The notes below the pieces were generated by a model. The model made no database searches. It was given only the letters and a program-made list of their open reading frames with translations, and had not been told where the DNA came from. A program made the position numbers and the translations under genes. Shown here piece after piece: positions 28,295-46,712 of a DNA stretch of 46,712 bases (positions within the stretch are counted from its first letter, which is position 1; the number at the start of each line of letters is the position of its first letter). Source of the stretch: an uncultured Bacteroidales bacterium (lineage in GTDB: Bacteria > Bacteroidota > Bacteroidia > Bacteroidales > Paludibacteraceae). The DNA lies in contig CALZRN010000004.1 in the NCBI GenBank assembly GCA_945828585.1, positions 1 through 46,712 of the forward strand. Direction: 5' to 3'.

Positions 28295-28446
28295 AATTGT
28301 AGATTAATTTAAGTTATTTGTGTATTAATTGTTTTTCTTTGTCAAAGCTCTTTTCTTTGAAAAGCGGCGCAAAGTTACTGTTTTTTTTGCACGTATGCAA
28401 ATAATTCGTCCAAAAATCTTATTTTTGTAATCTTATTTTTACAAAA

Positions 28447-38695: not shown

Positions 38696-40483
38696 ATGAA
38701 TGAAGAATTGAAACAAGTAATGGCAGTCGCCGAGGCTTGGACGAAAGAGCCGTTTGACGCGGAAACTCGCGCACAAGTGAAGGCGATGATGGAGGCAGAG
38801 GACAAGACCGAGCTCCTCGACGCTTTCTATCGTACCCTCGAATTCGGTACCGGCGGTCTGCGCGGCATCATGGGTCCGGGTACGAACCGTATGAACAAGT
38901 ACATCGTTGCGATGGCAACGCAGGGTTACGCCAACTACATGCTGAAAGTGCAGAAAGAAGGCGGTTTTGAGCACGTGCAGGACGGTCGTGTAGCGGTTGT
39001 CGTTGGTCACGACTGCCGTAATAACGGTCGGCTCTTCGCGGAGACGGTAGCCAATATCTTCTCTGCGAACGGCATCAAGGTGTATCTCTTTGAGAGCCTG
39101 CGTCCAACGCCGGAGGTGAGCTTCGCTATCCGGCATCTCAAATGTCAGGGCGGTGTGAACGTGACGGCTTCTCATAACCCGAAAGAGTACAACGGCTATA
39201 AAGCCTACTGGGAGGACGGTTCGCAGGTGCTGCAGCCGCATGACCAGGGTATCATCGACGAGGTGAATAAAGTGACCCTTGCGGATGTCAAATGGGAGGC
39301 GAACAAGGACCTTATCGAGATCATCGGCGGTGAGATGGATTACGACTACATGATGGCGGTTAAGTCCGTTATGATCGACCAGGAGACTATCCTTCGTCAG
39401 AAAGACCTCAATATCGTCTATACCCCGATGCACGGAGCCGGTCGTCAGATCGTGCCGTTGTGTCTGCGTAGCTGGGGATTCCAAAACATCCACGTAGTAC
39501 CGGAGCAGATGGTCATCGACGGTAACTTCCCGACGGTAGTCAGCCCGAACCCCGAGAACGCTGAGGCGATGACGCTTGGTATGAAACTCGGTACGAAGCT
39601 TGGTGCCGATCTCGTTATCGCGAGTGACCCGGATGCGGACCGTATCGCTATCGTCTGCCGCAACGACAAGGGCGAGTGGGTCATCATCAACGGCAACCAG
39701 ACCAACATCATGTTCCACTACTACATCATCAATAACATGAAGCGGCTGGGTAAGTTCCGCGACGACATGTATATCGTCAAGACCATCGTGACCTCGGAGC
39801 TCATCCGTAAGATTGCGGACGCTCAGGGCGTTACCCTCACCGATGAATACACCGGCTTCAAGTGGATCGCCAACCGTATCCGTATGTGGGAAGGCAAGCG
39901 TAAGTATATCGGTGGCGGTGAGGAGAGCTTCGGCTTCCTGCCGTACGACGCCGTTCGCGATAAATGTTCGCCTTCGGCTATCTGCTTGATCTGCGAGATC
40001 GCAGCCTACGCGAAGGACAACGGCATGACGCTGTACGACTATCTGCTGAAGATCTACGCCGACTACGGCTTCCAACGCGAGACGACGATCAATGTCGTTC
40101 GTCCGGGTAAGACCGGCGCGGAGGAGATCCAGCAGATGATGAAGGACTACCGCGCTAATGCGCCGAAAGAGATCGCCGGCGAGAAGGTATGCCTCATCAA
40201 GGACTATAAGACCCTCGAGCAGAAGAAATTGGTAAATGGTAAATGGGAAAATGAGAAAATCGAAATGCCTCTGAACGCGACGAGCAATGTGCTGCAGTAT
40301 TTCACCGAGGGCGGTCTCAAAGTCTCCGTTCGTCCGTCGGGTACCGAGCCGAAGATCAAGTTCTATTTCGAGATCCCGGTCAAGACCGAGATCGGCAAAC
40401 CCTTCACCGGTGCCGACTACGAGCGCTGCACTGCGGAAGCGGAAGCCCGTGTTCCGGAAATCAAGAAGAGCCTGGGACTCTAA
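38696..40483 (+). CDS. Phosphoglucomutase/phosphomannomutase
   Basis: FGTGGLRGIMGPGTNRMN, VTASHNPKEYNGYKAYW, DPDADRIAI, RPSGTEPKIKFY. Confidence 0.94.
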   Translation: MNEELKQVMAVAEAWTKEPFDAETRAQVKAMMEAEDKTELLDAFYRTLEFGTGGLRGIMGPGTNRMNKYIVAMATQGYANYMLKVQKEGGFEHVQDGRVAVVVGHDCRNNGRLFAETVANIFSANGIKVYLFESLRPTPEVSFAIRHLKCQGGVNVTASHNPKEYNGYKAYWEDGSQVLQPHDQGIIDEVNKVTLADVKWEANKDLIEIIGGEMDYDYMMAVKSVMIDQETILRQKDLNIVYTPMHGAGRQIVPLCLRSWGFQNIHVVPEQMVIDGNFPTVVSPNPENAEAMTLGMKLGTKLGADLVIASDPDADRIAIVCRNDKGEWVIINGNQTNIMFHYYIINNMKRLGKFRDDMYIVKTIVTSELIRKIADAQGVTLTDEYTGFKWIANRIRMWEGKRKYIGGGEESFGFLPYDAVRDKCSPSAICLICEIAAYAKDNGMTLYDYLLKIYADYGFQRETTINVVRPGKTGAEEIQQMMKDYRANAPKEIAGEKVCLIKDYKTLEQKKLVNGKWENEKIEMPLNATSNVLQYFTEGGLKVSVRPSGTEPKIKFYFEIPVKTEIGKPFTGADYERCTAEAEARVPEIKKSLGL

Positions 40484-40547: not shown

Positions 40548-40585
40548 TTGTTTTTGTCTCCTTCCCCTTTGCCCTTCGTCCCCTT

Positions 40586-40876
40586 CTCGCGCATTTTTGC
40601 GCGAGCCCTTACATTGTTCATTGCGTCCGGATATTATCCGGACACGGCTCCGCCGTCCTGTATGTCTGTTTCCGGCGGATTGTATCCGCCGTTTTCTTTT
40701 TCCCTTTTGCGCGAGCCCTTACTTTGTTCATTGCGTCCGGATATTATCCGGACACGGCTCCGCCGTCCTATATGTCTGTTTCCAGCGGATTGTAACCGCC
40801 GTTTTCTTTTTCCCTTTTGCGCGAGCCCTTTCTTTGTTCATTGCGTCCGGATATTATCCGGACACGGCTCCGCCGT
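40586..40876. repeat. 110-bp tandem repeat array of hairpins (about 2.5 units)
   Basis: gcgagccctt recurs at 40601, 40711, 40821; each unit has TCCGGATATTATCCGGA and ACGGCtccGCCGT, with GGCGGATTGTATCCGCC or a variant in the first two. Confidence 0.9.
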
Positions 40877-40892
40877 CATTAATTCGTAATTT

Positions 40893-41294
40893 TTAATTTT
40901 TAATTTTTAATTCTTTATATATCTGCACATACACATACGTGTACAGACTCCCGTACCCCTTCTCGCCTTCTTGTAACCCGGCGCGATACGCTTGGAACCG
41001 CTCCTGCCACTCCTTCGCCTCGGCTACTGCCTCCGCGGTACACTCCTCCGGCTTGCGGGCGGCTTTCTCGATGGCGTGGGCGCGTTTCTGGGCGGCCTTG
41101 ATCAGCTCCCGGTTCTTCGTTGCACCCTCGGACCACGCACCCTCATGTTTCTGCATGAAATAAATCTGGTGTTCGCTCCCGCTCCCTTTCCGGTGACGCG
41201 ACACCAAACGCATGCCGTGGCTCTCACCGTATTTCTTGCTGTCCAGAGCCCCCGTCAGTTGATCTACAACTACATGATACTTTACTTTTCCCAT
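40893..41294 (-). CDS. hypothetical protein, 133 aa
   Basis: Intact ORF with lysine-rich N-terminus; no family recognised. Confidence 0.6.
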   Translation of the reverse strand: MGKVKYHVVVDQLTGALDSKKYGESHGMRLVSRHRKGSGSEHQIYFMQKHEGAWSEGATKNRELIKAAQKRAHAIEKAARKPEECTAEAVAEAKEWQERFQAYRAGLQEGEKGYGSLYTYVYVQIYKELKIKN

Positions 41295-41727: not shown

Positions 41728-41918
41728 CTCGTGCATCCTTGCGCGAGTTTTCTTTCTTGGCACTTTCGCGGGGTATTATCCCGCTTGACTGTGTCTTTTT
41801 TCGCGGGATATTATCCCGCTTTTATTTTCTTCTTTTTCAGGGCAATTCGATTGCCCGCCTTGTATGTCCGTTTCTGCGGAATTATATTCCGCCCACCGCA
41901 CGGTGCATTGATGCACCG
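41728..41918. repeat. Second hairpin array, non-identical stems
   Basis: CTCGtGCATccttGCGCGAG, GCGGGgtattatCCCGC, GCGGGATattATCCCGC, GGGCAATtcgATTGCCC, GCGGAATtatATTCCGC, ACGGTGCATTGATGCACCGT. Confidence 0.85.
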
Positions 41919-41927
41919 TCATCCGCT

Positions 41928-44900
41928 TTATCGTACTTCCTGCCCGGTAATGGTATATACCTTCTCCCCGCGGAGGATGAAGATTTGACCGTTGATGAGG
42001 ATCTTACGAACAACGTCTCTCTTTTGAGATGAAGTGTTATCTATATTTTTAGTAACCTCGGTACACTGAGCGTCCAAATGTAGATTTTTAATTTCCCATG
42101 TCGCATAGTTATTCGCTGCGCTTGTGTACTTGAATCCGAATACAGTATGCTCACCTACTTTATCAAGAGGAACATTAACGACAACATCCACGTAAGTCCA
42201 ACTGGTATTGGATGCATAAGGCGAAATGGGGAGTTGCTGCCATGAGGAGGATTCTACACTGCCCTGATAGTCAGCAGAGATCCATAATGTCATTTCGCTC
42301 TCAAAATCTACTGCATCTCGGTGTACATGGCTGAACGAAAGTGTAATATTCTCCTTTTCGTTCAAATCTTGCTGTGGAGTCAATAACCATGCAGAAACTC
42401 CTCCGCGCTTCTTGCTTACTGCGCCATATCTGCTATTCCAAGTCCACACTTCCGCATTGTTAGTGGACATTTCGCCCCAGTCGCTCTCGCCGGTTGTTAA
42501 CCAATCCATGTGAACACAACCGCTTACCGGTTTTTCTGTAGCCGTGTAGGTCGCGGTATAATCAGCATCTGCCGTTGCAGCAACGATAGTCGGAGACCAA
42601 CCATCGAACAAATAAGTGTACTGCTCATCTTCGGGGCGTACTGGCGTAGTGCCGTCATAAGCAGGCATATCACCTTCTTCCACTTGGCTGCTTTGTAATA
42701 CCGTTCCGTCCCAGTTGAGGAAGCGGATGGTGTAGTAAGTGGGTTGTGGTTTGGTTGTAGCCGTGTAGGTTGCGATATAATCAGCATCTGCCGTTGCAGC
42801 AACGATAGTCGGAGACCAACCATCGAACAAATAAGTGTACTGCTCATCTTCGGGGCGTACTGGCGTAGTGCCGTCATAAGCAGGCATATCACCTTCTTCC
42901 ACTTGGCTGCTTTGTAATACCGTTCCGTCCCAGTTGAGGAAGCGGATGGTGTAATAAGTCGGTTGAGGAGGTGTAGAGCCTTCGCAAATAGCATCTAATT
43001 GTAGATTCTTTATAGACCAATAGGCATAACTTACACTTGCGCCTCCGTATGAAAATCCAAAAACTGTATTTTCGCCCACATATTGCTTTTTAACATTTAT
43101 TACGGCTGTTTTATATCTCGGAATTGTAAGTTTTTGCCACTCGTCATCTTCTCTATCTTTGAAATCAGCACAAACCCAAAGTGTCAAATCTTGTGTAGAT
43201 ATATCTGAAGATACGTGGCTAAAGGATAATGTTACAGATGACATATTAGATAAGTCTTTAGCGGGTGTCCTTAAGAAATCATAGTTTGTTCCATGTATAG
43301 TAGCTCCACTATTTACATGATAGCCCCATAAACCATTATCACTTACAATTTCTCCCAAGCCATCTTGTCCAGTCTGTAGCCATATTTCATGTATGTCTTC
43401 GCATTCTCCTGAAGACGTTTTAAGCGTGTCATATTGTGCCGTATAAGTAGCATTACCGGTAACGGGAGTCAACTCCGGCACCCAGCCTGTGAATGTATAA
43501 GAGTAAATACCGTTTGACGGTTTGGCTGGATCTGTATGAGATGGCATTGAACCATAGTCATATTCTACTTGATCAATGATTGCTCCATCATTATCTTGGA
43601 ATGTAATAGTATATTTTTTTAGTTCAAACTCTGCTGTAAACGCTGTATCTTGTGTTATCACTACACGACGCGAGTTTCTCGTCTCTCCATCATTCCATTG
43701 TACAAAACGATAACCGGTATTTGGAGTGGCGTAAAGAGAGATGCTTTGCATATATTCTGCTTGCTCATGATAGGAGACCGAACCTTGATTTGGATCATAT
43801 ATCACCGATACAGAGTAGGTATTTTTCGCTAAAGATGCTACATAGAGTTTATGCTCGGTGACAGTAACTGTACGTGGATTGTCTGTATTTCCATCAGACC
43901 ATTGAACAAAATGGTAACCATAATTTGGTTCTACAGCAATAGTAACAACACTTCCGTACTCATATTCTCCCTCGCCTGTTAACGTGCACCATGTTTCTTG
44001 AGTTGCGGTGGACGTTCCGACTTTGATTTCATATAAAGTCTTAGCGAACAGAGCTTTAAACGTAGTGTCTTGAGTAATAATAACCGTTCGTGGGTTATCA
44101 TGAACGCCATCAGCCCAACCCGCGAAATGGTATCCCTCCGTTGGAATAGGCATCAATTTGACAGACTCTTGGCATTCAACTTCAGTAGGTCCGTATCCTC
44201 CTATTTGATCATATATACCGCCTTGTTCTTCGTTGACTATTTTTGTAATAGTATATGTTGCTTTGGCAAAATAAGCAATATATGTTTTGTTCTCCGTGAC
44301 TGTAACTATACGTGGGTTGTCTGTATTGCCGTCATTCCATTTGTCAAAGCGATAGCAGTCCGCAGGGGTCGCAGAAATGGTTACTTGGTCTTGGTATAGT
44401 GCAGAATCACTCCCCGAAGTTGTACCATACTGATCATTGAGAGTAATAGCTGAGATACTATATGAATTCTTCGCAAACTCTGCGGTAAACGTAGTGTCCT
44501 GCATAAAGTCGATTGAACGAGGATTATCGATATTACCATCATTCCATTGCACGAAATGGTAACCGCTGTTAGCTATCGCGGAGATAGTTACTAATTCGCC
44601 TACACTGTATTTACCGGCTCCTTTAACAGTACCCATTTCTGTGTTATTAACGGACAAAGAAAGAGTGGTCTTAAACCCGCCTACAGTAATATCCCGCTCG
44701 GCATAAACTCCGGAACCGTCAATGGCTGTGGCGCGAACTCTGACAGTACCGTTTCTTCCCTCGGTATTAGCTACTAACAAGCCGCTACTGTTGATGGTCG
44801 CCACTCCTTCTCCACTAACGATTTCCCATTTGACTTGTTTGAAGGTAGCTGAAATAGGTGACGTCTCTACATACAGATGCAGTACGTTTTGAGACGGAGA

Positions 44901-46712
44901 AAGCTCTACGGTACGCTCCATTGCCAGAATCGTCATCTGCTCTACCAATGTCGCTTGTACGGAAGAAGCGGAAGCCATTATATTACTGTGTCCGTTGCGG
45001 ATTTGTCTTGCTTGAGGCATACGCTTGATGGCAGGCGCATTAGCTGCTGGAGCGCTAATTGTCCATTCTTCCGTAAACGCTTCGTTGGAATAGGCGATTG
45101 CATAGTAGCCGTTTGCTATAGGATTGTTGTCCGTGTAGGTACATTCATCTCCCGCAACTGTAGCAAAGACTTGCATGTTCGAAGCAGAAGAACCCCTCAG
45201 AATTTGGTAGGAGTCCACTACATCGCCTTGATAATAAGTCCAATAGAGGTTAATAGCCCCATTTAGACCATAGTTAGTCTGCAAATGCGGCGTTTTATGC
45301 GGTTTACTCTTAGGACTTTCGCCTCCGTATATAGAGGTGTACGCTATGCAATAGGAATTGCTCTTTACCGATGGATCAGAAGAATTGTCTATCCATTGTC
45401 CGGCGGAAACAGGAAGCTTGGCTTGTTTTACCCAGTTATTGGTTTTGCCTTCCTCTTTATATACAATCACGCTATCCACATACGCAGGCAGGTTCGCCGG
45501 TGCATCCCAAGTAACCATATTCTTTCCGGTAGTAGCGTCTACCATGACCAAAGAGATAGCAGGTGCATTACCGTTCCCTACAATGGTTGTGGAATCACGG
45601 AATGTATTCACCTCTCCGCAAACAGGATTATTCTGATAGAATTCAATCCAACCTATCTCGGAATCATTGGGAGAAGTTCCACTAAAACGAACACGGAAGA
45701 TACGGGAATCCTTCTTGGGCAATACATATCCTGTGCAGTTGTCCGAAGTACGGAGAGCGAGGTTATCCAAATTCAAGTAGTTCTCCGGTAACATTACCTC
45801 TACCCATGAGTTATTCAATACTCGCTCAGGAAGGGCGAAAGTAAGGTCTTTTTGTGCGTTCTGCACATAGATAACCCGGGACGAAGTCTTGCCGTTCAGA
45901 GTTGCAGTCACGGTTTTAACGCCTTCCGTTGCCCATGAAACAGTGTATGTGCCATCGTTGTTTTGAGATGCCGTACCGCCGTTAAAGTTCCACGATATGC
46001 TGCCATTGTTCGTGCCTGTATAGGCAACTGTAACCGGCTCATTGAGGCAAGTATTGGCGGGCATGGAGATCAGAACCTGAGGTTGTACCGTAAAGGTATA
46101 TACCGCGGACATAGGACTATGGGCGTTCCAAAGGTCTATAGACTGGATTTGGAACTCGTAGGTCTGTCCGCCGGTGAACTTGTCAATAGGAATGAAGTAA
46201 CTGGTACCTGTAAAGTATGCATATCCCGGAATAATGGCAGCTTCATCATATAAGCCGTTTACAGGCGAGATGACAAAAGCATTATCCGTTCCGACTGACA
46301 TTCCTTGTTTCTTGACACTGATATTGTATCGCATCTGGGCATATGGTGTCTCTTTATCTTTGGCAGCGTCCCAATACAAATATACGCCATCACTTTCTTG
46401 TACAGCTCGTAAGTTGGTCGGCACAGCAGGGACTGCGTTCCGGATATTACTTTTGAGTATATACTCATTCAAGTCCGGCACACCATCACCATTTAAATCT
46501 ACAAAAGGATAGGTGTCTATATCACGAATGAATGTATAACTACTTTCATTGATATATTGACAAGAAACCGTACAATCATCATACATATATATTACGAATA
46601 CTTTTGCTGCTGAAGAGTTTCCTGTAGATATAAAATCAAGATAACCATTGTTATCAAAATCATATCCCACCTTTAAATATCTGGTTTCTAACTCATTTAA
46701 CTGAAAATCGCT
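41928..46712 (-). CDS. Giant secreted/surface protein (fragment at right edge): FN3/PKD-like, Ig-like, InlB/Flg_new-type repeats, jellyroll-like modules, T9SS-type tail
   Basis: At least five FVQWNDGNTDNPRxVTVTxxxTYxAxFAK repeats, two 73-aa YYTIRFLNWDGTVLQSSQVEEGDMPAY repeats, C-terminus KILINGQIFILRGEKVYTITGQEVR; 5' end probably beyond the window. Confidence 0.85.
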   Translation of the reverse strand, partial: SDFQLNELETRYLKVGYDFDNNGYLDFISTGNSSAAKVFVIYMYDDCTVSCQYINESSYTFIRDIDTYPFVDLNGDGVPDLNEYILKSNIRNAVPAVPTNLRAVQESDGVYLYWDAAKDKETPYAQMRYNISVKKQGMSVGTDNAFVISPVNGLYDEAAIIPGYAYFTGTSYFIPIDKFTGGQTYEFQIQSIDLWNAHSPMSAVYTFTVQPQVLISMPANTCLNEPVTVAYTGTNNGSISWNFNGGTASQNNDGTYTVSWATEGVKTVTATLNGKTSSRVIYVQNAQKDLTFALPERVLNNSWVEVMLPENYLNLDNLALRTSDNCTGYVLPKKDSRIFRVRFSGTSPNDSEIGWIEFYQNNPVCGEVNTFRDSTTIVGNGNAPAISLVMVDATTGKNMVTWDAPANLPAYVDSVIVYKEEGKTNNWVKQAKLPVSAGQWIDNSSDPSVKSNSYCIAYTSIYGGESPKSKPHKTPHLQTNYGLNGAINLYWTYYQGDVVDSYQILRGSSASNMQVFATVAGDECTYTDNNPIANGYYAIAYSNEAFTEEWTISAPAANAPAIKRMPQARQIRNGHSNIMASASSVQATLVEQMTILAMERTVELSPSQNVLHLYVETSPISATFKQVKWEIVSGEGVATINSSGLLVANTEGRNGTVRVRATAIDGSGVYAERDITVGGFKTTLSLSVNNTEMGTVKGAGKYSVGELVTISAIANSGYHFVQWNDGNIDNPRSIDFMQDTTFTAEFAKNSYSISAITLNDQYGTTSGSDSALYQDQVTISATPADCYRFDKWNDGNTDNPRIVTVTENKTYIAYFAKATYTITKIVNEEQGGIYDQIGGYGPTEVECQESVKLMPIPTEGYHFAGWADGVHDNPRTVIITQDTTFKALFAKTLYEIKVGTSTATQETWCTLTGEGEYEYGSVVTIAVEPNYGYHFVQWSDGNTDNPRTVTVTEHKLYVASLAKNTYSVSVIYDPNQGSVSYHEQAEYMQSISLYATPNTGYRFVQWNDGETRNSRRVVITQDTAFTAEFELKKYTITFQDNDGAIIDQVEYDYGSMPSHTDPAKPSNGIYSYTFTGWVPELTPVTGNATYTAQYDTLKTSSGECEDIHEIWLQTGQDGLGEIVSDNGLWGYHVNSGATIHGTNYDFLRTPAKDLSNMSSVTLSFSHVSSDISTQDLTLWVCADFKDREDDEWQKLTIPRYKTAVINVKKQYVGENTVFGFSYGGASVSYAYWSIKNLQLDAICEGSTPPQPTYYTIRFLNWDGTVLQSSQVEEGDMPAYDGTTPVRPEDEQYTYLFDGWSPTIVAATADADYIATYTATTKPQPTYYTIRFLNWDGTVLQSSQVEEGDMPAYDGTTPVRPEDEQYTYLFDGWSPTIVAATADADYTATYTATEKPVSGCVHMDWLTTGESDWGEMSTNNAEVWTWNSRYGAVSKKRGGVSAWLLTPQQDLNEKENITLSFSHVHRDAVDFESEMTLWISADYQGSVESSSWQQLPISPYASNTSWTYVDVVVNVPLDKVGEHTVFGFKYTSAANNYATWEIKNLHLDAQCTEVTKNIDNTSSQKRDVVRKILINGQIFILRGEKVYTITGQEVR
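42538..42975. repeat. Near-identical 219-bp tandem duplication in the giant protein gene
   Basis: gccgtgtagg motif at 42541 recurs at 42760; the intervening sequence is almost unchanged. Confidence 0.9.

Follow-up and report, generated by a model that had tools for sequence, protein, structure and literature searches.

Hairpins with freely varying stems in an uncultured Bacteroidales genome: probable REP-like repeats of a divergent RAYT clade with a predicted DprA-like domain

Introduction

The present analysis is concerned with a question that is raised by a window of 46,712 nucleotides, i.e. the whole stretch of DNA that was analysed (contig C4 of a 135-contig, 1.83-Mb assembly of an uncultured Bacteroidales bacterium): what are the short hairpins that fill two neighbouring arrays, sharing one architecture and differing in their stems? 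The arrays are flanked by a phosphoglucomutase gene (38696-40483) on one side and a long repeat-protein gene (41928-46670, minus strand) on the other, and are separated by a 133-aa open reading frame (40893-41294), for which the family profile search has returned no family match; Rfam has no match at either array. A first-pass annotation of the same DNA had regarded the hairpins as a single structural family, possibly bearing specificity in the free stem, and had suggested that a REP-associated Y1 transposase might be linked to them.

REP, REPIN and BIME sequences are short palindromes with a 5' foot, which occur in many copies per genome and flank RAYT genes (PMC2817692, PMC3116915, PMC8266576); in the E. 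coli REP, the upper stem-loop is mainly a structural requirement, while the GTAG foot either makes contacts or has a guiding role (PMC8266576). In RAYT subclass 2.4 (Bertels group 4), which occurs in Bacteroidetes and Cyanobacteria, "double foot" REPs are located in the transposase gene itself (Quentin et al. 2018, PMC6006769). The recognition by RAYTs of their own repeats, and the co-change of repeat and enzyme, have been studied in only a few systems.

Results and discussion

The two hairpin arrays of the window

The five kinds of 17-nt hairpin that had been described are all present (TCCGGATattATCCGGA at 40626, 40736 and 40846, GGCGGATtgtATCCGCC at 40674, GCGGGATattATCCCGC at 41803, GGGCAATtcgATTGCCC at 41840 and GCGGAATtatATTCCGC at 41876), but only three of them are located in the interval 41728-41918, to which all five had been assigned; the first two kinds are located outside it, in array 1. 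In total, the window contains seven perfect clustered hairpins and one stray copy at 28411, against 0.2 expected under a second-order Markov model. Array 1 (~40580-40880) is built of 110-bp tandem units; the features of both arrays are listed in Table 1. The linker that the two arrays had been noted to share is real, but is one instance of a general foot (tag, TCNNTT and 2-3 nt), and the CTCGYGC..GCGCGAG lead-in does occur in both arrays, but as a separate hairpin.

Table 1. Features of the two hairpin arrays, in window coordinates.
Position	Strand	Feature	Sequence	Basis or remark
40586..40605	+	Array 1 lead-in, separate hairpin	CTCGCGCA-tttt-TGCGCGAG	Sequence; common to array 2 as repeat D3
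40595..40924	+	Array 1 tandem 110-bp units, third partial		Repeat family D2
40611..40642	+	Element, foot and hairpin	ACATTGTTCATTGCG + TCCGGAT-att-ATCCGGA	
40659..40690	+	Element, foot and hairpin	TGTATGTCTGTTTCC + GGCGGAT-tgt-ATCCGCC	Same element in relative G083
40721..40752	+	Element, foot and hairpin	ACTTTGTTCATTGCG + TCCGGAT-att-ATCCGGA	
40769..40800	+	Degraded copy of the 40659 element	AGCGGATtgtAACCGCC at 40784	Sequence
40831..40862	+	Element, foot and hairpin	TCTTTGTTCATTGCG + TCCGGAT-att-ATCCGGA	Equals the single copy in relative G065
41728..41747	+	Array 2 lead-in hairpin, one G-T pair	CTCGTGCA-tcct-TGCGCGAG	Sequence, repeat D3
41753..41784	+	Imperfect element, foot and hairpin	TTTCTTGGCACTTTC + GCGGGGT-att-ATCCCGC; GCGGGGTattATCCCGC at 41768	
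41788..41819	+	Element, foot and hairpin	GACTGTGTCTTTTTTC (last 15 nt) + GCGGGAT-att-ATCCCGC	Stem in G083: GCGGAAT/ATTCCGC
41825..41856	+	Element, foot and hairpin	TTTTCTTCTTTTTCA + GGGCAAT-tcg-ATTGCCC	Tag class of the resident C130 transposase
41861..41892	+	Element, foot and hairpin	TGTATGTCCGTTTCT + GCGGAAT-tat-ATTCCGC	

Two side hairpins of the arrays recur genome-wide, CGGC-TC[CT]-GCCG (40643-40660) at 22 sites and GCATCCTTGC (41728-41747) at 11 sites. The neighbouring long repeat-protein gene, which has InlB B-repeat-like domains, contains two 219-bp direct repeats that are 96% identical (42529-42966).

A repeat family with free stems

In the 1,760,363 bp that our assembly counts cover (96% of 1.83 Mb), perfect hairpins of the form N5-AT-NNN-AT-N5' occur 101 times, against 3, 3, 5, 8 and 12 times in five third-order Markov genomes, and footed hairpins, i.e. 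those with T[CT]NNTT located 2-3 nt upstream, occur 76 times, against 0, 0, 1, 0 and 0 times. The closing context is specific: AT closes 82 of the 248 hairpins with a 7-bp stem and a 3-nt loop in 1.52 Mb, while each other dinucleotide closes 3-20. When the sites that have a foot and an AT-NNN-AT core are sorted by the number of complementary stem bases, from zero to five, the counts are bimodal (65, 113, 87, 42, 26 and 78); in the same foot-anchored test, the 15 other closing dinucleotides have 0-6 sites with all five bases complementary. The 76 footed copies comprise 24 stems, 34 six-base tags and 27 loops, so that a single structural family with a fixed AT-NNN-AT context and freely varying, complementary stems, as the first-pass annotation had supposed, is found throughout the genome at a frequency well above that of the Markov genomes, contrary to the refuting condition of that annotation.

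Since the stems vary freely, such families are missed by ordinary repeat searches. A genome search with a single stem sequence has retrieved local copies only, and the linker alone is too loose as a genome query (36 matches versus 29 for the reversed control). For one group of stems, a degenerate pattern is found in 30 of the 37 genomes of the genus and, when read backwards, only once; the same pattern is found in none of the 24 genomes from other families of the order.

The hairpins might be intrinsic terminators or mRNA-stabilising 3' ends that have the closing context in common by chance, the arrays being redundant terminators. At least five T within the 8 nt that follow the hairpin are found in 18 of the 76 footed copies, versus 7 of 76 at control positions 50 nt further on, and the window copies at 41803 and 40674, downstream of the phosphoglucomutase gene, have T-rich tails. 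However, three quarters of the copies have no T run, 29 of the 76 are located inside ORF models, several of them in long conserved genes, and terminators leave unexplained the 5' foot, the copies inside transposase genes and the tag agreement that are described below; we consider this explanation very unlikely.

Footed hairpins, up to three per gene, are also located within four DUF3987 genes (L141:2355-4742, L282:1113-3359, L270:1473-3734 and L034:346-1653), three of which have a BT4734-like N domain as well. Two other classes of 7-bp hairpins are in excess, those with AT and a 2-nt loop (47 versus 4) and those with CC and a 5-nt loop (56 versus 5). The hairpins at L072:14085, L087:16259 and L115:9996, which are possibly a separate small repeat family, have the common flanks GGCTATCTATTATC and AAGCAAAAAA, unlike the transposase-tagged class.

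The transposase

A Y1 transposase is indeed present in the genome, but it is encoded elsewhere, the window contig having no Y1_Tnp match: there are four genes of one clade (C84, C66, C10 and C130, the last known from search matches alone, its contig being outside the 96% that was read) and two distant relatives (C61 and C58). The named carriers of homologues are rumen and gut Bacteroidales MAGs, many of them labelled Paludibacteraceae and some Prevotella, while the phage and plasmid collections contain no relative of the transposase. The element pattern occurs in 25 of the 26 genomes of the genus that have a protein match, versus 5 of the 11 that have none (Fisher P = 0.0012); some of these five genomes are incomplete.

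The C84 protein (329 aa) scores below the cut-offs of both relevant families, REP_Tyr_transpos (NF047646; E 1.7e-6, 28 bits, cut-off 80) and Y1_Tnp (PF01797; 19.8 bits, cut-off 23). The HUH motif P[DN]H.H, mostly as PDH[LVI]H, is found in 87 of 87 homologues, and the catalytic-tyrosine motif Y[VIL]..NP, mostly as Y..[ML]NP, in 84 of 87, with Y158 being invariant in 54; IF[TS]E or a similar sequence is located at the aligned place of the usual W[QE] before the tyrosine helix.

An AlphaFold2 model from 54 homologues (pLDDT 84.6, pTM 0.72) has Foldseek matches with IS608 (TM 0.67 by target), ISDra2 and the REP transposase-REP complex 4er8, and also with the DprA family, i.e. ShosA (E 6.7e-6), H. 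pylori DprA (E 2e-3, TM 0.46 by target) and S. pneumoniae DprA; an earlier model from 15 sequences has returned the same fold families. The Foldseek table gives no residue ranges; the motifs place the HUH fold in the N-terminal half, and the DprA-like fold would correspond to the C-terminal half, for which Pfam has no match, while PADLOC has no model for the protein. The hairpins appear to be REP-like elements of a divergent RAYT (Y1/HUH) family, multicopy in the genus.

The element inside the transposase gene

Among 80 named homologues, 71 have the element within the reading frame, between the HUH motif and the tyrosine; the other nine mostly seem, by eye, to have a different hairpin at that place. 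In the numbering of the model, the element occupies a poorly modelled loop, which follows helix 98-120 and precedes strand 142-146. The full element consists, from the outside in, of an outer stem or "tag" (5-8 bp, free in sequence but complementary), an internal loop formed by the nearly constant foot TCNNTT and 2-3 nt, and a 7-bp inner stem, of which the five outer pairs are free and the two loop-proximal pairs are A-T and T-A, with a free 3-nt loop. The in-gene element is complete, having a foot on both sides and the outer stem at a nearly fixed offset; the dispersed copies mostly have the 5' foot and the inner hairpin alone. A GT[AG]G foot is found within 12 nt of the hairpin in one of 76 in-gene elements.

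At least six Watson-Crick outer pairs are formed in 40 of 72 genes, versus about eight genes when the 3' arms are swapped between genes, and, in an alignment of 37 sequences, two-sided changes occur in five of the seven outer pairs; the covariation score of the outer stem is 0.319, versus 0.120 when shuffled and at most 0.108 when slid. The same two helices are proposed by RNAalifold.

Two explanations centred on the gene product or its transcript have to be weighed here. If the protein linker were the conserved thing, the DNA hairpin would be a by-product, as might be expected in a poorly modelled loop where insertions are tolerated; however, the element is translated in one codon frame in 45 distinct cases and in a second one in 24, so that the encoded peptide changes and both DNA helices persist. 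The conserved thing is therefore the DNA, not the peptide, and the linker explanation is scarcely credible. Alternatively, the in-gene hairpin could be an mRNA autoregulatory site bound by the protein, the dispersed copies putting other genes under the same control: the structure is kept while peptide and frame change, RNA folding predicts both helices, and copies do occur within ORF models. Against this, HUH transposases act on DNA and whole insertions are observed; we find an mRNA site highly improbable.

The transposase genes at L163, L262 and L172 have two in-frame elements; at L163/L262, the second has a different stem, which is still complementary.

The tag and the HUH domain

The proposal that the free stem bears the specificity is not supported in that form: the inner stem of the in-gene elements hardly varies (CCCG[AC]AT), unlike that of the dispersed copies, and lineages differ instead in the 5-7 nt outer-stem tag that is located 5' of the TCNNTT foot, in which the gene and the adjacent copies agree. 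Between the in-gene six-base tag and the copies of the same locus, the agreement is 4.48 of 6, versus 3.00 by permutation (sd 0.15; maximum of 2000 permutations 3.52).

The DNA identities of the N and C parts of the gene correlate at only 0.52, the two halves having recombined, as is seen in mosaic pairs (N and C identities of 0.71 and 0.92 for L209/L213, 0.84 and 0.68 for L205/L115). Across pairs, the similarity of the tag correlates modestly with that of the N part (partial r 0.24, permutation maximum 0.145) and not with that of the C part (-0.07), the loci being non-independent. Because the in-gene tag physically adjoins the N part, a second test used only those copies that lie downstream of the gene, i.e. 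beyond the C part (28 loci); here, the values, again modest and from non-independent loci, are 0.20 (P = 0.0005) for the N part and 0.01 (P = 0.44) for the C part. The tag follows the HUH domain rather than the C domain, despite domain recombination; the specificity is probably not located in the free stem, the foot and outer-stem tag being the better candidate.

Of the 76 tags in this genome, only 23 have a match among the four resident main-clade enzymes. Two window copies belong to the TTTCT class of the C130 enzyme, namely the one at 41825-41856 and, less exactly, the one at 41753-41784, whose foot looks like the 3' foot of in-gene elements of the TTTCT class in reverse complement; for the TGTATG tag class, the nearest are enzymes of other genomes (AGTATG). 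The arrays of the window are clusters of copies from several tag classes.

More tentatively, the TnpA-DprA chimera might be a self-addressed system, which carries in frame the tag that is read by its own HUH domain, with the in-gene hairpin marking the point where HUH and DprA-like halves are exchanged, yielding new tag-specific transposases together with their address; we regard this as possible but doubtful.

Reshuffling of the two halves between lineages is observed at L209/L213, L191/L258 and L205/L115, the similarity often shifting around the in-gene element. In a set of six loci (L192, L206, L208, L209, L210 and L213), the copies upstream of the gene are for the most part in inverted orientation to it, many of them with the GGGCAAT stem, while those downstream are mostly direct and have GCCGGAT, GTCGGAT or TCCGAAT stems; at these loci, the stem may differ by position relative to the gene.

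Mobility and turnover

At L191 and L156, 62 bp that include a footed hairpin with a tag of the same class as that of the gene are inserted relative to L189, which has none, the flanks being 95-97% identical; in comparison with L207, a hairpin insertion of 30 bp is found at L224. At L184, 51 bp are duplicated in tandem in comparison with L239, and an in-frame 42-bp duplication, having a hairpin with another stem, is located inside the transposase gene at L163 and L262 (L156 and L191, like L163 and L262, appear to represent one locus retrieved twice). In IS200/IS605 insertion sequences, for comparison, the gene moves as a unit bounded by its end hairpins; among similar transposase genes here, homology often stops at the gene plus 0-200 bp.

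The locus of the window varies between relatives: the three units of the window are matched by a single TCCGGAT element in G065, GGCGGAT and GGACAAT elements are present in G083, and both G022 and G018 are without any. Stem turnover between relatives, which had been put forward as a check, is seen at the orthologous array 2 site, where GCGGGATattATCCCGC corresponds to GCGGAATtgtATTCCGC in G083, a paired, compensatory change; the last element of array 2 differs from that of G083 on one side only. Judging from the empty sites, the repeats are probably mobile.

An explanation without mobility is that the repeats are passive local palindromes, multiplied by slippage during replication, by template switching and by tandem duplication, to which the transposase is unrelated. 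Wherever two copies are neighbours within 200 nt (33 of 33 pairs), they have the same orientation, so that local clusters probably do grow by duplication; tandem duplications of 110 and 51 bp and the in-frame one of 42 bp are at hand, and template switching would also preserve the complementarity of the arms. Passive copying does not explain, however, why there are copies at distant sites and why the position within transposase genes is fixed, nor does it account for the tag agreement with the neighbouring gene, the association with the HUH domain or the absence of the pattern in the 24 genomes of other families, and we consider it unlikely.

Proposed mechanism

We therefore favour, with a probability of about 0.78, the reading that the hairpins are REP-like repeats, probably mobile, which are spread by a divergent RAYT clade that has a C-terminal DprA-like domain. 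By analogy with the known biochemistry of TnpA_REP (PMC8266576), the HUH domain would bind the folded single strand, probably of the lagging-strand template, reading the inner hairpin mainly by its shape, and the foot and tag by contact; it would then nick the strand and paste a copy elsewhere, while the DprA-like domain may hold or anneal the strand. Tandem duplication would subsequently enlarge the local clusters, and the in-gene copy would keep each transposase gene together with a usable substrate. An inner stem that is read by shape would drift by paired changes, the free stem being a consequence of shape recognition. Against this model stand the family scores below cut-off, the missing W[QE] and GT[AG]G, the mere 23 of 76 tags matched, the five genomes that have elements but no protein match, the modest tag-HUH correlations, and the growth of some arrays by plain tandem duplication.

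Comparison with known systems

Like the known RAYTs, the present proteins have an HUH motif and a single tyrosine followed by NP, on a Y1 fold, and their genes are flanked by repeats that are also found elsewhere in the genome; they depart from them in the curated family score, in W[QE] and in the GT[AG]G foot. The closest likeness is to subclass 2.4, in which the repeats also flank the gene and are located in frame between HUH and tyrosine, with a foot on both sides. That subclass has the motifs NH[IFV]H, WQ and YIxNNP, a median length of 194 aa, GT[AG]G at the base of the stem and the insertion between beta3 and alphaC (PMC6006769); here, by contrast, most proteins have PDH[LVI]H and Y..[ML]NP, with IF[TS]E where W[QE] would be expected, the length is approximately 330 aa with the predicted DprA-like domain, the foot is TCNNTT with a variable tag, the insertion follows, in the numbering of our model, an alphaC-like helix, and a covarying outer stem is added.

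With REP, REPIN and BIME sequences, the hairpins share footed short palindromes, high copy number and a position flanking a transposase gene; they differ in lacking the GTAG foot, in having 24 stems in one genome, and in that neighbours are always direct, never inverted pairs. Stem-variable palindromes with a constant tag, and in-frame insertion into genes, are also known from SMAG/GTAG repeats and Rickettsia palindromic elements, which have other tag and stem rules and are not known to have an in-gene copy in a dedicated DprA-fused transposase. The CGTC palindromes have a stem of 8-9 bp starting with AT, loops of 4-5 nt, a mostly head-to-head dimeric arrangement and no transposase (Di Nocera et al. 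2013, PMC3733652). They resemble the present elements in the unpaired [CT]GTC-like motif located 5' of a short stem, the A-T at constant positions, their occurrence in Bacteroidetes and some in-gene copies; here, the stem has 7 bp with AT beside a 3-nt loop, a spacer follows GTC, the clusters are direct, and there is a transposase. Linking a transposase to palindromes with a GTC-type foot is relevant to the CGTC-tagged repeats, reported without one.

DprA binds single-stranded DNA (PMC9122126); the predicted fold of the C-terminal domain is like that of DprA and the antitoxin ShosA, but here it would be joined to a transposase domain. Neither REP/RAYT systems nor the presence of REPs within RAYT genes (subclass 2.4) is new as such. 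In the literature consulted, mostly without subscription papers, there is no description of a DprA fusion, of RAYTs in defence loci, or of such repeats in Bacteroidales; the covarying tag, the missing GT[AG]G foot, the DprA-like fusion and the restriction-gene neighbourhood look new. The family offers dozens of natural enzyme-element pairs whose tags differ by lineage, as well as natural domain swaps by recombination, the outcome of which points to the HUH domain.

Gene neighbourhood

No neighbour gene is constant, the commonest cluster occurring in 6 of 82 loci. Among the upstream neighbours, 8 of 59 match Eco57I-type methylases (several of them MmeI-like or type IIG) and three match HsdS, while 3 of 60 downstream neighbours match HsdR. 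The background for Eco57I is typically 1-5 matches per genome; assuming 3 in 1800 genes, which is a rough background of our own, and with loci that are non-independent, the binomial value is ~1e-13. The family joins a Y1 transposase to what is predicted to be a DprA-like domain, often beside restriction genes, and, if the self-addressed system were real, the frequent restriction-modification neighbours would point to a device acting on single-stranded DNA in defence islands, by moving, editing or sensing it.

At L185, L186, L191, L210, L215, L224, L241 and L258, the restriction-modification neighbours (type IIG/MmeI-like, HsdM/S/R) are co-directional and located 10-200 bp away. Single neighbours of the RAYT-DprA loci include a RuvC_III (Cas9-type) domain, a YhcG nuclease and Fic.
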